From NCBI GenBank assembly GCA_015067675.1, contig SVMB01000006.1:1-64000 (forward strand): 64,000 nt of DNA. Direction: 5' to 3'. This DNA is from Oscillospiraceae bacterium (lineage in GTDB: Bacteria; Bacillota; Clostridia; Oscillospirales; QAMX01). Both the position numbers and the translations under genes were made by a program. Shown here one piece after another: positions 11,209 through 21,957 of this stretch. Numbering within the stretch: the stretch's first letter is position 1; every line of letters starts with the position of its first letter. The notes under the pieces are model-generated. The model worked only from the letters and a program-made list of their open reading frames with translations. It was not told the DNA's origin and did no database searches.

Positions 11209-11607
11209 TTATCCGACTTTCCGGAATCCGGAAATACCCACGTTTGCCACCAGCGTTCCCAGCTCATCCTTCACTTCAATGAGGAAAAAACAGGTGCTGC
11301 GGCCTGATTTGACGCATTTTGCCTCGGCAATGAGCTCTTTTCCCTTCGCGCCGCCCAGATAGGTCACGGTACCCGTCTGGGAAACGGTCAGAGGATTGCC
11401 GGTATTGGCAGCCACCGCAAAAGTAAAATCTGCCAGCGTATAGATTGCGCCGCCCATGACGGCGCCCGCCGCGTTCTGATGCTTCTTTTGGATGGTCAGG
11501 CGGCATTTTGCGTAATTGACGTCGGCCTCCTCGATGACAATCCCCGTCGCCTCGGTGGCGAAGAGATCCTCTGCAAAACGCGCTCTCGCCTCTTCCAGAT
11601 AACTCAT
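11209..11607 (-). CDS. PaaI-family hotdog thioesterase
   Basis: 132 aa; NAAGAVMGGAIYTLADFTFAVAAN hotdog signature. Confidence 0.85.
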   Translation of the reverse strand: MSYLEEARARFAEDLFATEATGIVIEEADVNYAKCRLTIQKKHQNAAGAVMGGAIYTLADFTFAVAANTGNPLTVSQTGTVTYLGGAKGKELIAEAKCVKSGRSTCFFLIEVKDELGTLVANVGISGFRKVG

Positions 11608-11619
11608 TGTTTCCGCTCC

Positions 11620-12777
11620 TTACACCTCGGAGAAGCAGCCCAGGAATGCAAACTGCTCGCTGCCGCTTTCCAGCTCACCCAGCAGACGGATGGCCTCGTC
11701 GGAATAAGCGGAAGCTTCCAGGTCAAAGTAGAACATGAACTCAAAGTCGCGTCCGGCGATGGGACGGCTCTCGAGCTTGACAATATTGAGACCCATAGCG
11801 AAGAACCGGGCGATCATGCGGTACAGCGCACCGGGCTGATGGGGCAGGGTGAACATGATGCTGATGCGATTGGCGCCGGGATAGATGGCCATATCCTTGG
11901 CGATACAGATGAAGCGGGTGAAGTTATTCTCGCTGTTCTGGATATGCTCGGCAACAACCTCCAGGCCGTAGAGCTCGGCGCAGTTGTAGGAAGAGATCGC
12001 CACGATATCCGTACGACCGGACTCGGAGACAAGCTTTGCCGCCACGGCGGTATTTTCACAGACCGTAACCGTAACGTCACCCAGGCTCTTGACAAAGGCG
12101 GAGCACTGACCCAGGCCCTGCTCGTGGGAGATGATCTCACGCACGCCGGAGAGCTTCGTGCCGGGATTACCCAGCAGCGCATGCTGAACGGGCAGCTTCA
12201 CGCTGCGTACAATATGGAAGTTATGCTGACGCATCAGGTCATAGACAGCGTTGACGCTGCCGTGGGAGCTGTTCTCGATGGGCAGAACGCCGTACTGGCA
12301 CAGACCCTTTTCAACCGCGTTGAACACGCCGTCAAAGTTGCGGAAATACATGATATTGGCATAAGGGAAGATCTTTTCGCAGGCTTGCTGAGAGTAGGCA
12401 CCCTCGACGCCCTGACAGGCAACAATACCCTTCTTGGGGAAGATCTTCGGGGTGTTTTCGCGGGCATTGCGGATACGGTCCACCAGAGGCGTGTCCTTAC
12501 CCAGAAGACGGGCCTGGTAGGCACGGCTCAGATCAAAAATGGTATGATAGAGAAGCCGGGTGTACTCATCCATCTCATCGCCGCCCAGAGCACTTGCCTG
12601 ATCGCCCACGCGCTGCAGAATGGCACGCTCGCGAGAGGGCACATAAATCTGCATATTGTGCTCAGCCTTATACTGCGCCACCTGAGCAGACAGCTGCATA
12701 CGCTTGATAAAAAGCTCCGTCACCTGATTGTCGATGACGTCAAGCTGTTCACGAATATTATTGAGATCCAGTTCCAT
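11620..12777 (-). CDS. pheA: Bifunctional chorismate mutase / prephenate dehydratase
   Basis: 385 aa; N-terminal chorismate mutase helix (LNNIREQLDVIDNQVTELFIKRM), prephenate dehydratase domain (GVEGAYSQQACEKIFP), C-terminal ACT domain (ESRPIAGRDFEFMFYFD). Confidence 0.95.
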   Translation of the reverse strand: MELDLNNIREQLDVIDNQVTELFIKRMQLSAQVAQYKAEHNMQIYVPSRERAILQRVGDQASALGGDEMDEYTRLLYHTIFDLSRAYQARLLGKDTPLVDRIRNARENTPKIFPKKGIVACQGVEGAYSQQACEKIFPYANIMYFRNFDGVFNAVEKGLCQYGVLPIENSSHGSVNAVYDLMRQHNFHIVRSVKLPVQHALLGNPGTKLSGVREIISHEQGLGQCSAFVKSLGDVTVTVCENTAVAAKLVSESGRTDIVAISSYNCAELYGLEVVAEHIQNSENNFTRFICIAKDMAIYPGANRISIMFTLPHQPGALYRMIARFFAMGLNIVKLESRPIAGRDFEFMFYFDLEASAYSDEAIRLLGELESGSEQFAFLGCFSEV

Positions 12778-12795: not shown

Positions 12796-13872
12796 TCAAT
12801 CCAGGATCAAATCCAATATCACTGCCGCGCAGACTGCCTCCGCCACCGGTACGGCGCGGGGCACGATGCACGGATCATGCCGGCCGTGCACGGCGAGGAT
12901 GGCATTCTCACCGCGGGACAGGCTCACGGTATTCTGTTCCTGCGCAATGGAAGGGGTAGGCTTGATGGCAATGCGGGCAATGAGAGGCATACCGCTGGTG
13001 ATGCCGCCGAGAATACCGCCTGCGTGGTTTGTATCGGTGACGATCTGTCCGTTCTCCATCCGGAAGGGATCGTTATTTTCAGAGCCCCGCAGTCCGGCGA
13101 CATCAAAACCTTCGCCAAACTCCACGCCCTTGACCGCCGGAATGCCAAACAGTGCCTGCGCCAGCCGGTTTTCCACGCCGTCGAACATCGGCGCTCCCAG
13201 CCCCGCAGGCAAACCCACGGCGCCGATTTCGATGATGCCGCCCACGGAATCCTTCTGTGCCGCAGCGTCGAGAATCGCCCGCTGCATGGCCTCACCTGCC
13301 GCGTCGTCAATGACGGCAAAGGGCTTGCTGCCGGGGTTTTTCAGCATTTCCGCCGTCAGCCCCACCGGATCAAAGCGGCTGTCGCAGACACCGGCGATGC
13401 GCTCGATATGTGCGCCCACCGTGATGCCGCGGTTTTCAAGAATCTGCAGACAGATGCCGCCGGCGATGCACAGCGGCGCCGTCAGACGACCGGAGAAATG
13501 ACCGCCGCCGCGCATATCAGCCGCACCGCCCCACTTTTTCCAGGCGGTGAAGTCGGCATGAGCGGGCCGGGGCTTATCCAGAAGCTCTGCATAATCCTGC
13601 GAGCGGGTGTTGGTATTGAAAATAATGCCGCAAAGCGGCGCAGCGCAGGTTTTGCCGTCCACAAGACCGGACACGATGCGCACCTCGTCAGGCTCCTTTC
13701 GGGAAGTGGCCGTTTTGGCACGTCCCGGCGCACGGCGCTCCATAAATGCCTGCAGCGCGTCCAGATCGATACGCTCTCCCGCCGGAAGTCCGTCAACAAG
13801 CACGCCGATGGCCTCGCCATGGGATTGTCCGAACACGGAAATACGAATATTACGTCCAAATTCAGACGACAT
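12796..13872 (-). CDS. aroC: Chorismate synthase
   Basis: MSSEFGRNIRISVFGQSHGEAIGVLVDGLPAG; RGGGHFSGRLTAPLCIAGGI; start trimmed to ATG at 13872. Confidence 0.96.
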   Translation of the reverse strand: MSSEFGRNIRISVFGQSHGEAIGVLVDGLPAGERIDLDALQAFMERRAPGRAKTATSRKEPDEVRIVSGLVDGKTCAAPLCGIIFNTNTRSQDYAELLDKPRPAHADFTAWKKWGGAADMRGGGHFSGRLTAPLCIAGGICLQILENRGITVGAHIERIAGVCDSRFDPVGLTAEMLKNPGSKPFAVIDDAAGEAMQRAILDAAAQKDSVGGIIEIGAVGLPAGLGAPMFDGVENRLAQALFGIPAVKGVEFGEGFDVAGLRGSENNDPFRMENGQIVTDTNHAGGILGGITSGMPLIARIAIKPTPSIAQEQNTVSLSRGENAILAVHGRHDPCIVPRAVPVAEAVCAAVILDLILD

Positions 13873-15121
13873 GAGCCTTTCCTCCCAGCTTTTTAAAATC
13901 ATCGAAGAAATGCGGATAGGATTTTCGTACCGCATGGGCGTCGGAAATCCGGGTTTCACCGTCAGCTCTCAGCGCCGCTGCGGCTGCGGCCATCACCATG
14001 CGGTGATCGTTGAAGCCTTCAACACAGGCTCCGTGCAGCACATCCCTGCCTTCAATTTCCAGCGCGTCGGGGTATTCCGTGACACGCACGCCCATAGCGG
14101 TGAGAATCTGCGTGGCAGCTGCCAGCCGGTCGCACTCTTTCAGTCGGACACGGGCAGCGTTTTCCAATCTGCTCACGCCTTTTGCGCAGGCTGCGACCAC
14201 CGCCAGAATCGGAGCAAGGTCCGGAATCTCTCCCACATCAATCGTCTGCGCGGAAAGCTCTGCCGGGGATACGGTAAAGCGGGTACCGTCCTGTTCCACC
14301 TTCGCACCGAAACGCTCCAGCAGCGTGACAATGGCACGATCCGGCTGCGCGGAATCCATATGCAGGTTCTCCACCGTGACCGGCGCGCACAGCGCACCTA
14401 TCGCCAGCGGAAATGCAGCACCCGACCAGTCACCTTCCACCCGGATGCCCTCAGGCGCGTGATACGTCTGATTGCCGGGGATTCTCCAGCCTGTGTCCGT
14501 TGCCTGCACGGTCACGCCGAAGCGCGCCATCGTGCGCAGGGTCATGTCCACGTAGCCCACTGACTGCAGCGGTGAAGTCAGACAGATCTCGCTGTCGCCG
14601 TCAAGAATGGGCAGGGCAAAGAGCAGGCCGGTCACGTACTGGGAGCTGATGTTGCCGGGCAGACAGAAGCAGCCCGCCGTCAGTTTTCCCGAGATACGCA
14701 GCGGCAGATGATCGCTCGAAAAGATACTATTATGTGCCGTCAGAGCTCCAACCAGCTCCGAAAGCGGCCTTTCCGGCAATTTACCGGAACCGATAAAGTC
14801 CGTCGTGGTTCCCAGCGCCGCCGCCACCGGCAGCATGAAGCGCAGGGTCGAGCCGGATTCGCCGCAGTCGGCAGTGCCGCCGTTTTCCGGCGTCCCGATG
14901 GGCGTTACCTGTATGGAATCCTCCTCCGGGAAGGCAAAGGACGCGCCCAGCGCCTCAAGGCAGCGCAGCGTCGCATCGATATCTGCGTTGCGCGCACCCA
15001 CATGCAGCGTACAGCCGTTATCGGCAAGCGCTGCACAGATGAGCGCCCTGTGGGCGTCCGACTTGGAGGTCGGGGCGGTCAGGATGCCGCCTGCAAAGCC
15101 CGGATGCACAATTGCTTCCAT
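13862..15121 (-). CDS. aroA: 3-phosphoshikimate 1-carboxyvinyltransferase (EPSP synthase)
   Basis: 419 aa; SKSDAHRALICAAL, DCGESGSTLRFMLPV, KECDRLAAA, FNDHRMVMA. Confidence 0.96.
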   Translation of the reverse strand: MEAIVHPGFAGGILTAPTSKSDAHRALICAALADNGCTLHVGARNADIDATLRCLEALGASFAFPEEDSIQVTPIGTPENGGTADCGESGSTLRFMLPVAAALGTTTDFIGSGKLPERPLSELVGALTAHNSIFSSDHLPLRISGKLTAGCFCLPGNISSQYVTGLLFALPILDGDSEICLTSPLQSVGYVDMTLRTMARFGVTVQATDTGWRIPGNQTYHAPEGIRVEGDWSGAAFPLAIGALCAPVTVENLHMDSAQPDRAIVTLLERFGAKVEQDGTRFTVSPAELSAQTIDVGEIPDLAPILAVVAACAKGVSRLENAARVRLKECDRLAAATQILTAMGVRVTEYPDALEIEGRDVLHGACVEGFNDHRMVMAAAAAALRADGETRISDAHAVRKSYPHFFDDFKKLGGKAHVV

Positions 15122-16186
15122 TTATGCTTCCTCCCCGTCGCGAATCCAGCTTTCAAGCTCCTCCACGGGGATCGTGTGGAGTGTACATGCGCCGATCTTT
15201 TCAGGCAGCACCAGCGTAATCCTGCCGCCGCGGCGCTTTTTATCAGAGAGTGCTGCATCGGTCAGCTCCCTGACCGTACAATTGACGCTGACCGGCAGAT
15301 TGTTGGCCGTCAGAACCTTTCGCAGCGTATCGGCAACGCCTGCCTCACAGATGCCGTGTTTCTCGGCAGCCCGGGAGGCCATCACCATGCCCACCGCCAC
15401 CGCATGACCGTGAGTCAGGGCGTGATGAGTGCTCTTTTCGATGGCGTGACCAAAGGTATGACCGAGATTCAAAAGCTGACGCAGGCCGGATTCCCGCTCG
15501 TCGGCGGCGACAATGCGCGCCTTGAACTTCACGCACTGAGCCACAATCGATGCAATCCGCTCCCGGCAGTCCGGCTTTTCAAATTCCGCAAACAATGCCG
15601 GATCATCAATGATACCGGCCTTGATGGCCTCGGCAAGACCATCGGCAAACCGATCCTCATCCAGTGTCGCAAAGCAGTCCGTATCACAGATCACCAGCGA
15701 CGGCTGCCAGAAGGCGCCCGCGAGATTCTTTCCCGCGCTCAGGTTTACGCCGGTCTTGCCGCCCACGGAGGAATCCACCGCCGCCAGCAGCGTAGTCGGC
15801 ATCTGTACAAACTCAATGCCGCGCAGATAGCTTGCCGCGGCAAAGCCTGCCATATCGCCGGTGATGCCGCCGCCCAGGGCAACAATGATATCCGAACGGG
15901 TCAGGCGCTCAGCTGCCAGAAATTCCAGCATTCCGGCAAATGTCGCCAGGCTTTTGTTCTCCTCGCCGACTGGGAATGCAAAACGCACCACCCGGAATCC
16001 GGCGGCTTCCAGGCTTGCCGCCGCACGGTTGCCGTACAGCGCATCCACGGTTTCATCGCTGATGAGCGCCGCCGTCGCTGCGCGATCGCCCAGGGTTTCC
16101 CGGATCATGGTACCTGCCTTGTCCAGAAGACCTGCGCCGATGCACACGTCATAAGCTCTGCCCGTCTCCACTTGAATGGTTTCCAT
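15122..16186 (-). CDS. aroB: 3-dehydroquinate synthase
   Basis: 354 aa; ALGGGITGDMAGFAAASYLRGIEFVQMPTTLLAAVDSSVGGKTGVNLSAGKNLAGAFWQP; LLNLGHTFGHAIE. Confidence 0.97.
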   Translation of the reverse strand: METIQVETGRAYDVCIGAGLLDKAGTMIRETLGDRAATAALISDETVDALYGNRAAASLEAAGFRVVRFAFPVGEENKSLATFAGMLEFLAAERLTRSDIIVALGGGITGDMAGFAAASYLRGIEFVQMPTTLLAAVDSSVGGKTGVNLSAGKNLAGAFWQPSLVICDTDCFATLDEDRFADGLAEAIKAGIIDDPALFAEFEKPDCRERIASIVAQCVKFKARIVAADERESGLRQLLNLGHTFGHAIEKSTHHALTHGHAVAVGMVMASRAAEKHGICEAGVADTLRKVLTANNLPVSVNCTVRELTDAALSDKKRRGGRITLVLPEKIGACTLHTIPVEELESWIRDGEEA

Positions 16187-17031
16187 CAGCGTTTGCCTCC
16201 CTTGTCAACCTCCGCCTTGATGCGGGTACCTTCCTCCAGCAGAGCCCTCAGCGCGTCTTCGTTCCTGGTACGAATGGCGATGGCGTATTCCATCAGCCGT
16301 GCCGCCAGCGCTTCGACTTCCAGTGCCAGAGGCCCGGAATTTGCCAGAAACAGCTCCGTCCACATATTCACATTCATCGTGGCAACACGGGTCATATCCC
16401 GGAAGCTGCCGGCGGAAAAGCCCTGATGACGCAGCGCCGAGGGGCTCTTGACGTAGGCACTGGACAGCACATGGGCAAGCTGGGACGTATAGGCAATCAT
16501 ATGGTCATGTTCATCGGGCGTTGAGATACGGATACCGCCAAAGCCCATGGACATGAACAGTTCACTGGCATCCCGGATTGCGGATTCATCCGTATCGTAC
16601 TCCGGAGTCAGAATCATGGACGCGCCCAGGAAGAGTTCGGCCGAGGTATTGTCAAAGCCCGACTTCTCCTTACCCGCCATCGGGTGACCGCCCAGGAATC
16701 GCCAGCCGTAACGTCTGGCAATCGGACGCACACCGTCGCATACCGGGCGTTTGACGCCTGCACAGTCAACCACCAGCGTACCGGGCATGATCTTTGCGCC
16801 GTTGGCTTCCAGCCAGTCCACCACGTTCTGCGGATAGAGCGCTACCAGGATCACCTGACAGTCGCCGATGTTACTGTCATCCAGCACGCCGTCCATGGCG
16901 TTGATATCCGCGGCCTTCTCCAGGGCAGACGGATCACGGTCGCAGGCAAAAACCGTGTGCTTTGTATTGATTTTCAGCGTTCTCGCCAGAGAACCGCCGA
17001 TGAGTCCCATACCAACGATTCCGATGTTCAT
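16186..17031 (-). CDS. tyrA: Prephenate dehydrogenase
   Basis: 281 aa; [49 protein letters not shown]. Confidence 0.94.
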   Translation of the reverse strand: MNIGIVGMGLIGGSLARTLKINTKHTVFACDRDPSALEKAADINAMDGVLDDSNIGDCQVILVALYPQNVVDWLEANGAKIMPGTLVVDCAGVKRPVCDGVRPIARRYGWRFLGGHPMAGKEKSGFDNTSAELFLGASMILTPEYDTDESAIRDASELFMSMGFGGIRISTPDEHDHMIAYTSQLAHVLSSAYVKSPSALRHQGFSAGSFRDMTRVATMNVNMWTELFLANSGPLALEVEALAARLMEYAIAIRTRNEDALRALLEEGTRIKAEVDKGGKR

Positions 17032-18032
17032 ACCCGCATAGCCTCCAGAATGCGCCCGACATCGCCGGCAACTTCCTTATAAGCGTCCGGCGTCAGGGAC
17101 TGGGGACCGTCGCAGAGCGCGGCGGATGGGTTGTTGTGAACCTCGATGATCAGACCGTCGGCGCCGGCAGCCGCAGCTGCGCGGGACATGGGACGGACAA
17201 ACCGGGCATAGCCCGTGCTGTGGCTGGGGTCGATGACCACCGGCAGGTGGGTCAGTTCCTTGAGCACCGGAATCGCAGACAGATCCAGCGTATTGCGGGT
17301 GTGCGTCTCGAAGGTACGGATGCCGCGCTCGCAGAGGATGATTTCCTCGTTGCCGCCGGCCATGATGTACTCGGCACTCATGAGCAGCTCATCGATGGTG
17401 CTGGACAGGCCGCGCTTGAGCAGGATGGGCTTATTGAGCTTGCCAAGCTCACGCAGCAGGGTGAAATTCTGCATATTGCGGGCGCCGACCTGAATCATAT
17501 CCACTTCTTCAAACAGCGGAAGCTGGGAAAGATCCATAATTTCGGTAACGATGGGCAGTCCCGTGACCTTTTTGGCCTCCAACAGCAGCTCAATGCCGCG
17601 GTTATGCAGGCCCTGGAAAGCATAGGGAGAGGTGCGGGGTTTGAACGCGCCGCCGCGCAGCATCGTGGCGCCCGCCGCCTTCACGCTCTGGGCAACACTG
17701 AGGATCTGCTCCTCGGATTCCACCGAGCAGGGGCCCGCGATCATGGCGAAATTGCCGCCGCCGGCCTTCATGTCGCCCACCTGAATCACCGTCGGATCGG
17801 GATGGAAACGGCGGTTTGCCTTCTTATAAGGTTCCTGAATACGCTTGACCGTATCAACGATATCCAGCGCCTGAATCAGGTCAATATCAATAGCAGAGGT
17901 GTCGCCGACCAGGCCGAGGATGGTCTGAAGCTTGCCTTCCGTGACATGAACATCCAGATTCATACCGCGCAGCCACTGAATCAGCTGTTCTCTCTGAGCC
18001 ATATCCGTATTGGACTTCAATAACACTACCAT
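17028..18032 (-). CDS. aroF: 3-deoxy-7-phosphoheptulonate synthase (DAHP synthase)
   Basis: Start trimmed to ATG 18032 ([26 protein letters not shown]); [13 protein letters not shown]...[26 protein letters not shown]. Confidence 0.95.
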
Positions 18033-18089: not shown

Positions 18090-18122
18090 AAAAAAGTCCC
18101 GCAGCATTCACTGCGGGACTTT
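18090..18122 (-). terminator. Attenuator/terminator between the Phe/Tyr leader ORF and aroF
   Basis: Minus strand: AAAGTCCCGCAG-TGAATG-CTGCGGGACTTT followed by UUU; 12-bp perfect stem (18111-18122 / 18093-18104). Confidence 0.88.
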
Positions 18123-18162
18123 GGCAACCTGATAATTCCTTGCAGGTATTTCCTTGATTCCC

Positions 18163-18255
18163 TTACTTTGCAGCGAACGCCGAATAAGCCTTACCGAAGT
18201 AAAAGCCGGTAAAGCTAAAGTAAAAGTATTCGGCTGCAAAGTTCGTGCGGGTCAT
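18163..18255 (-). CDS. Phe/Tyr-rich leader peptide (30 aa) of the aromatic operon
   Basis: ATG ACC CGC ACG AAC TTT GCA GCC GAA TAC TTT TAC TTT AGC TTT ACC GGC TTT TAC TTC GGT AAG GCT TAT TCG GCG TTC GCT GCA AAG TAA = MTRTNFAAEYFYFSFTGFYFGKAYSAFAAK*. 7 Phe and 4 Tyr in 30 residues; AGGAG upstream; promoter just upstream and terminator just downstream. Confidence 0.85.
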   Translation of the reverse strand: MTRTNFAAEYFYFSFTGFYFGKAYSAFAAK

Positions 18256-18286
18256 AATCAAGAACACTCCTGTTTTTTCTGATGCC

Positions 18287-18315
18287 AGTATACCACCGGC
18301 TCAACCGATTGTAAA
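18287..18315 (-). promoter_or_regulatory. Sigma-A-type promoter of the aromatic operon leader
   Basis: Minus strand TTTACA (18310-18315) - 17 nt - TATACT (18287-18292). Confidence 0.75.
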
Positions 18316-20699: not shown

Positions 20700-21923
20700 T
20701 TAGCCGATGATAGCCTTGTGGTAGACCTTCTTGCCCTTGCGGATCTTGACACCGTTGCGCAGCTGCTCCTCGCTGACAGTGGCGTCGGGAGCGGCAACCT
20801 TCTCGCCGTCCACGAACACGCCGCCCTGCTGGACCAGACGGCGGCCTTCGCTCTTGGAGGGGATGAGCTTGCAGGCAGAGAGCAGATCGAGGATGCCGAT
20901 CTTGCCGTCGGTGAGGACGGAAGCATCCAGCTGGGTGGTGGGCATATTGGAATCGTCGTCGCCGCCGGCAAACAGAGCGCGGGAGGCGGCGCGGGCCTTG
21001 TCAGCCTCTTCCTCGCCGTGGACGAGCTTGGTCAGCTCATAGGCCAGGATATCCTTGGCATCGTTGAGCTGGGAGCCTTCCCACTTGTCCATAGCATTGA
21101 TCTCTTCCAGAGGCAGGAAGGTCAGCATACGGATGCACTTGAGCACGTCCTGGTCGCCCACGTTGCGCCAGTACTGGTAGAAGTCGAAGGGAGAGGTCTT
21201 GTTGGGATCAAGCCACACAGCACCGTTGGCGGTCTTGCCCATCTTCTTGCCCTCGGAATTCATCAGCAGGGTGATGGTCATGGCGTAGGCATCCTTGCCC
21301 AGCTTCTTGCGGATGAGCTCGGTGCCGCCCAGCATGTTGGACCACTGATCGTCGCCGCCGAACTGCATATTGCAGCCGTAGTTCTGGTACAGGTGGTAGA
21401 AGTCGTAGGACTGCATGATCATGTAGTTGAATTCGAGGAAGGACAGACCCTTCTCCATACGCTGCTTGTAGCATTCGGCACGGAGCATATTGTTGACGGA
21501 GAAGCAGGCGCCGACTTCGCGCAGCAGCTCAATGTAGTTGAGCTTGAGCAGCCAGTCGGCATTGTTGACCATGATGGCCTTGTCCTCACCGAACTCGATG
21601 AAGCGCTCCATCTGCTTCTTGAAGCAGTCGCAGTTGTGCTGGATGGTTTCGGGGGTCATCATGCTGCGCATATCGGTACGGCCGGAGGGGTCGCCGATGT
21701 AGCCGGTGCCGCCGCCGATGAGCACGACGGGCTTGTTGCCGGCCATCTGCAGGCGCTTCATCAGACACAGAGCCATGAAGTGACCCACGTGCAGGGAATC
21801 GGCGGTGGGGTCAAAGCCGATGTAGAAGGTTGCCTTGCCGGTGTTGATCAGTTCGCGGATTTCCGCTTCGTCGGTGACCTGGGCAATCAGGCCGCGGGCC
21901 ACGAGTTCCTCATAAATCTGCAT
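20700..21923 (-). CDS. tyrS: Tyrosyl-tRNA synthetase
   Basis: MQIYEELVARGLIAQVTDEAEIRELINTGKATFYIGFDPTADSLHVGHF; KMGKT; C-terminal S4 domain. Confidence 0.96.
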   Translation of the reverse strand: MQIYEELVARGLIAQVTDEAEIRELINTGKATFYIGFDPTADSLHVGHFMALCLMKRLQMAGNKPVVLIGGGTGYIGDPSGRTDMRSMMTPETIQHNCDCFKKQMERFIEFGEDKAIMVNNADWLLKLNYIELLREVGACFSVNNMLRAECYKQRMEKGLSFLEFNYMIMQSYDFYHLYQNYGCNMQFGGDDQWSNMLGGTELIRKKLGKDAYAMTITLLMNSEGKKMGKTANGAVWLDPNKTSPFDFYQYWRNVGDQDVLKCIRMLTFLPLEEINAMDKWEGSQLNDAKDILAYELTKLVHGEEEADKARAASRALFAGGDDDSNMPTTQLDASVLTDGKIGILDLLSACKLIPSKSEGRRLVQQGGVFVDGEKVAAPDATVSEEQLRNGVKIRKGKKVYHKAIIG

Positions 21924-21957
21924 GGTTATATCTCCTTTCAAATCAGAAACAACTTAA

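Follow-up and report, generated by a model that had tools for sequence, protein, structure and literature searches.

How is the aromatic amino acid operon of this Oscillospiraceae bacterium controlled? In Firmicutes, control by T-boxes, TRAP or repressors is usually described where enterobacteria use leader peptides. In the stretch of DNA that we analysed (hereafter the window, positions 1 to 64,000 of contig SVMB01000006.1), a short unlisted ORF rich in Phe (F) and Tyr (Y) codons lies upstream of aroF, and the question is whether it is the sensor of an attenuator.

Layout of the leader and its operon

All features of the leader and operon are on the minus strand. A sigma-70-type promoter, TTTACA-17-TATACT, occupies 18287..18315 (10/12 matches in a consensus scan, confirmed by direct reading), with the -35 element TTTACA at 18315-18310, a 17-nt spacer, and the -10 element TATACT at 18292-18287 preceded by the TG of an extended -10. 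The Shine-Dalgarno AGGAG, read from the sequence at 18267..18271, begins 15 nt past the -10 element. The leader ORF (18163..18255) encodes MTRTNFAAEYFYFSFTGFYFGKAYSAFAAK in 30 codons plus TAA, with the ATG at 18255 and the TAA ending at 18163, and an F/Y-rich ORF is conserved here in relatives. The peptide has seven Phe, four Tyr and no Trp (W), and eight of the 11 residues of the control codon run YFYFSFTGFYF (18196..18228) are Phe or Tyr, a run supported by its enrichment over shuffles and by F/Y retention in pairs of related leaders (see below). Since there is an in-frame TTG 6 nt and a GTG 12 nt upstream of the ATG, the exact start is undecided; the Shine-Dalgarno lies 11 nt from the ATG but only 5 nt from the TTG. 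An intrinsic terminator hairpin of 12-13 bp (18093..18122), with a T tract running to about 18090, was detected by scanning and is supported by covariation.

An initial annotation of the window had described a promoter, an AGGAG, a 30-codon ORF, a terminator and then aroF on this strand, with Phe/Tyr making up 11 of 30 residues and 8 of 11 in the core, no Trp, and a 12-bp terminator with a T tract 40 nt after the ORF. All of this held. The sole correction is small: the distance from the -10 element to AGGAG had been given as about 25 nt and is 15 nt by the sequence. The annotation saw the terminator and missed the alternative pairings, that is, the RNA switch.

The gene order downstream is aroF-tyrA-aroB-aroA-aroC-pheA: aroF, a type I-beta DAHP synthase (17028..18032, NCBIfam PRK08673/TIGR01361), tyrA, prephenate dehydrogenase (16186..17031, NCBIfam), aroB (15122..16186, TIGR01357), aroA (13862..15121, TIGR01356), aroC (12796..13869, TIGR00033), and pheA, chorismate mutase/prephenate dehydratase (11620..12777, Pfam PF00800 and NCBIfam). 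A gene for a PaaI-like hotdog thioesterase (11209-11607) ends the operon.

Alternative pairings in the leader RNA

Segment 1 (CTTTGCAGC-CGAATA, 18241-18227) lies at the start of the ORF and segment 2 (TATTCG...GCTGCAAAG, 18186-18166) at its end. The two are complementary, and all 15 pairs between them (9 + 6 bp) are standard in this sequence. The control codons sit in the loop between them, and the leader stop is directly 3' of segment 2. The part of segment 2 at 18180-18170 (GCGTTCGCTGC) also pairs with segment 3 (GCAGTGAATGC, 18104..18114) as an antiterminator of 11 bp, two of them G-U, and segment 3 covers the 5' arm, the loop and the first 3'-arm base of the terminator (3:4). Segment 1 is supported by direct reading, the MFE fold and the cognate pairing test given below, segment 2 by standard pairs, the cognate test and the ribosome model, and segment 3 by standard pairs in the sequence and the cognate test. 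The leader fulfils the attenuator criteria of a translatable short ORF between the promoter and the first gene, a run of end-product codons, and an intrinsic terminator ahead of the structural genes. From sequence alone we infer that the 1:2, 2:3 and 3:4 pairings form a classical attenuator, in which the criterion of mutually exclusive 2:3 and 1:2 pairings is met as well.

The terminator is present in all 69 aroF loci with a called leader (see below), and it reaches -15 kcal/mol or lower in 93% of leaders versus 2% of shuffles. Over 17 relatives, 10 of the 12 pairs in its stem have changes on both sides, above all shuffles. For the other pairings we used an alignment-free cognate test, in which the spacer of each leader was paired either with the terminator arm of that leader or with those of the others. 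The 2:3 pairing gave -13.9 kcal/mol with its own partner and -11.5 kcal/mol with non-cognate partners (z -8.1), and the 1:2 pairing -19.7 versus -15.7 kcal/mol (z -9.7). The 1:3 control was weaker yet not zero (z -2.9), so composition or relatedness contributes some of the pairing signal. Aligned 1:2 pairs are conserved (68% paired, versus 34-42% when slid), but we looked for excess column covariation in them and did not find it, and the support for 1:2 therefore rests on the cognate test.

We also modelled the ribosome, using the partition function of a leader RNA whose transcription has reached segment 3, with a footprint on the first control codons or on the stop. The number of segment-3 nucleotides predicted to pair with the spacer was 4.4 with no ribosome, 9.2 with a stalled ribosome, and 3.6 with a ribosome at the stop. 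The gain on stalling was 4.7, falling to 0.7 when the spacer was shuffled. For some leaders (e.g. L101 and L113), the unconstrained truncated RNA already favours 2:3, and in these readthrough would be expected without a ribosome.

Conservation across the Clostridia

To follow the leader in other genomes, we gathered aroF orthologues in the family and in named GTDB genomes, and took -700/+8300 regions for 83 loci, which belong to 71 genomes. Of these 83 loci, 66% have an ORF with seven or more Phe/Tyr in 12 codons upstream of aroF, versus 0.5% of 8,300 dinucleotide shuffles, a more than 100-fold enrichment. The 191-nt leader in the window folds at -72.9 kcal/mol (z -6.7 versus shuffles), and together these two results place the observation beyond chance. 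When all 190 amino acid pairs were compared, F+Y was the most enriched upstream of aroF; Trp was not enriched. A clear leader is absent at 14 of the 83 loci. For the class as a whole we drew genomes evenly and took 60 of the better-matching aroF loci, 42 of which have a dense F/Y/W ORF.

The leader peptides differ greatly in length and sequence, and F/Y richness is their sole general trait, although the C-terminal words GKAYS and SWGYFYFSAGY are common to some. A peptide search across the family gave only one distant match because the peptide diverges, and the device was found through aroF synteny instead. Where F/Y codons have changed between related leaders (26 independent pairs), 55 of 103 still encode Phe or Tyr (34 synonymous, 21 exchanges of F and Y), versus ~25% expected from single-step mutation (p 7e-10). 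The initial annotation had held that loss of the ORF or of its F/Y codons in close relatives would refute the idea; the ORF survived, and most orthologues have an F/Y-rich ORF and a terminator. A pattern search for other F/Y leaders in the same genome gave 18 matches versus 46 in a reversed control, which is no evidence for further copies.

F/Y-rich leaders before aroF-pheA operons were also seen in metagenome-assembled genomes labelled Lentisphaerae or Lentisphaeria (L142, L163, L169) and Planctomycetia (L159). The aroF genes of three Lentisphaerae-labelled genomes form a clade of their own in the aroF tree. The taxonomic labels of these genomes are unverified.

Leader composition follows the genes served

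We consider the strongest evidence for an attenuator to be that the composition of the leader follows the genes it serves: Tyr-rich before aroF-tyrA, Phe-rich before aroF..pheA, and mixed before operons with both. The mean F/(F+Y) is 0.19 before aroF with tyrA and without pheA (6 loci), 0.55 before operons with both genes (40 loci), and 0.65 before operons with pheA and without tyrA (10 loci). Compared with the operons that have both, p is 6e-5 for the tyrA-only and 6e-3 for the pheA-only loci; these and our other tests were not corrected for phylogeny. Three of the six Tyr-type loci are on short contigs, where position alone does not rule out a pheA beyond the contig end. For two genus g8 genomes, pheA was located with the other aroF.

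Genomes with two aroF copies allow comparison within one organism. In G047, KYYYVSYQGYYY, with no Phe at all, precedes aroF-tyrA, and SYFYFFFQGFYFF precedes aroF-aroBAC-pheA. In genus g8, the leader of aroF-tyrA is YYGYYYGFAYDY and that of the pheA-linked copy is FFAAEYFFYFYF. In G022 and G023, one aroF has KYYYVLY or FAYYYALY, and the second has FYFTF or FTFTFTF. On the aroF tree, the Tyr-type copies form several widely separated groups (between-group distances 0.66-1.2), suggesting that leaders have been retuned repeatedly. The paired aroF isozymes of G022 (L151/L181) and G023 (L131/L180), where a Tyr leader serves one copy and a Phe leader the other, are reminiscent of the aroF/aroG division in E. 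coli.

Trp in the leader core tracks trpE, which is present in 11 of 16 genomes with W leaders versus 10 of 58 with W-less leaders (Fisher p 1.6e-4). Anthranilate synthase (PF04715) was not found in the genome studied here, which is 73% complete, nor in 18 of 20 family relatives, and its absence from the former fits a leader without Trp. In both trpE-bearing genomes of the family the sequence ends at or near the trpE start, so Trp leaders there could not be assessed. We conclude that the proportions of F, Y and W in a leader go with its operon and with the biosynthetic capacity of the genome. The genomes lacking PF04715 are probable Trp auxotrophs that retain the branches to Phe and Tyr. In aroF leaders from more distant Clostridia (L217, L226, L240, L242, L244), a core like FSWGYFYFSAGY recurs, with one Trp among Phe and Tyr, which might possibly be a three-amino-acid sensor.

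Proposed mechanism

Based on these results, we believe that the leader very likely senses charged tRNA-Phe and tRNA-Tyr, as a transcription attenuator mediated by the ribosome. The sequences themselves show the ORF with its biased codon use, the terminator, the alternative pairings, and the match between composition and operon; translation, stalling and readthrough are inferred, without wet-lab evidence. In the proposed mechanism, a ribosome would trail RNA polymerase through the leader ORF. With ample charged Phe- and Tyr-tRNA, it would pass the control codons and reach the stop directly after segment 2, which would be covered or re-paired with segment 1, so that the 3:4 terminator would form and transcription would end before aroF. 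When either charged tRNA is short, the ribosome would stall on the F/Y codons of the 1:2 loop and keep segment 1 apart, segment 2 would pair with segment 3, and with the terminator blocked, aroF-tyrA-aroBAC-pheA would be transcribed. The initial annotation had likewise proposed that Phe/Tyr-tRNA limitation stalls the ribosome and allows readthrough into aroF-pheA, which the comparative evidence supports, although stalling and readthrough remain inferences. It had not included the exclusive pairings as a switch, the operon-linked F:Y:W composition, or the class-wide rather than local nature of the device.

The best reading, in the absence of wet-lab evidence, is a new and widespread clostridial variant of ribosome-mediated attenuation. 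A bolder reading, which we regard as likely, is that much of the class Clostridia controls aromatic amino acid synthesis by leader-peptide attenuation as a rule. One modular device would be retuned repeatedly by codon swaps (Phe+Tyr, Tyr-only, Phe-only, Phe+Tyr+Trp) according to auxotrophy and gene content, would give duplicated aroF isozymes separate Phe and Tyr sensors, and would operate beside the T-boxes of tRNA synthetases in the same cells. In many clostridial families, gut commensals included, a major pathway appears to be under the control of a leader peptide, and many unannotated short ORFs acquire a likely function. The natural Tyr-only, Phe-only and mixed leaders make sensor specificity directly testable, and DNA alone could reveal which aromatic amino acids uncultured gut bacteria make and sense.

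T-boxes in the window and the genome

The tyrS gene (20700-21941) is directly preceded by a T-box (RF00230, 21981-22244, minus strand) scoring 90.8 bits, slightly short of the gathering score (93); its likely specifier loop carries UAC, and it has the T-box word GGTGGTACCGCG. With this T-box at tyrS and the leader at aroF, Tyr-tRNA is apparently read in two ways ~4 kb apart. The genome has about a dozen T-box matches, including a tandem pair upstream of a threonine deaminase-like gene, ilvA (L253, G000:C40:3659-4115). At one locus (L115), a T-box considered as a control of aroF was rejected, as it lies more than 6 kb downstream of that gene; a scan of 54 other loci found none ahead of aroF.

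Alternative explanations

The abundance of T-boxes in this organism, one of them before tyrS in the window, is the argument for a T-box or another tRNA- or metabolite-binding riboswitch at aroF, with the ORF incidental. However, this would leave the enrichment of F/Y codons and the tuning of F:Y unexplained, and a search of 18090-18315 with Rfam families, including RF00230 and the Proteobacteria leaders, gave no match at the gathering threshold or at E <= 1; we think it very improbable. It could also be argued that T-rich DNA upstream of a terminator yields an F/Y-rich frame by chance, and single cases do arise in this way at 0.5-2.5%. The enrichment in the 83 and the further 60 aroF loci is far above that in shuffles of the same dinucleotide content, and together with the composition tests this refutes the chance frame, leaving that explanation all but ruled out.

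The peptide itself might instead be what matters. If free Phe or Tyr bound in the ribosome caused arrest or release at a conserved motif of the peptide, in the way that TnaC responds to free Trp, the C-terminal words common to some leaders could reflect a constraint at the peptide level. Yet the peptides are highly variable with only F/Y richness in general, F and Y exchange freely (the 21 swaps above), and the composition tracks operon content as expected of codon sensing, so we give such a nascent-chain sensor very little credence. We also hold it very improbable that the product of the ORF is a small hydrophobic or aromatic protein that acts in its own right, the terminator giving constitutive attenuation. 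The Shine-Dalgarno and start codons are real and aromatic-rich peptides could be membrane-active, but there is no peptide conservation beyond F/Y content and no NCBIfam match, F:Y tracks tyrA/pheA linkage and W tracks trpE, and the segment pairing overlaps the ORF.

Comparison with known systems

We found no description of a clostridial Phe/Tyr leader family or of its tuning in Rfam or in the open-licence literature searched, the latter being weak evidence of absence. The nearest published item is the uORFC-13-1 motif upstream of aroF, with 24 representatives from only Acholeplasma and unassigned environmental sequences (PMC8632094). Like our leader, it has a uORF with Phe codons and a terminator immediately before aroF; unlike ours, it is described with at least one Phe codon, and no Tyr, operon tuning or class-wide distribution is reported (PMC8632094), a comparison based on the text only. 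Among Firmicutes, leader-peptide attenuation has genetic support in Staphylococcus aureus, where the ilvD attenuator peptide is rich in leucine (PMC5794164), and histidine leader peptides are predicted before hisS*/hisZ in bacilli (PMC2965389). Until they found these hisS cases, the authors of that 2010 survey were aware of no such system except in Proteobacteria and Actinobacteria (PMC2965389). The Leu and His cases involve other amino acids and other genes, and both are from the class Bacilli. The T-box riboswitch (PMC2494555) also senses tRNA charging and controls terminator readthrough in aromatic and tRNA-synthetase genes of Firmicutes, but it binds the tRNA directly without an ORF, and in the window it serves tyrS, with none found at aroF.

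Leader-peptide attenuation is textbook knowledge from the enterobacterial pheL-pheA, trpL, hisL and ilvGMEDA leaders. The clostridial leader resembles these in having a short ORF rich in codons for the product, mutually exclusive pairings, and an intrinsic terminator before the first gene. It differs in that it occurs in another phylum and does not match the Rfam leader families, in that its control codons are in the 1:2 loop, after segment 1, and in that it is a dual Phe+Tyr (or +Trp) leader before aroF, in contrast to enterobacterial pheL, which uses Phe alone before pheA.
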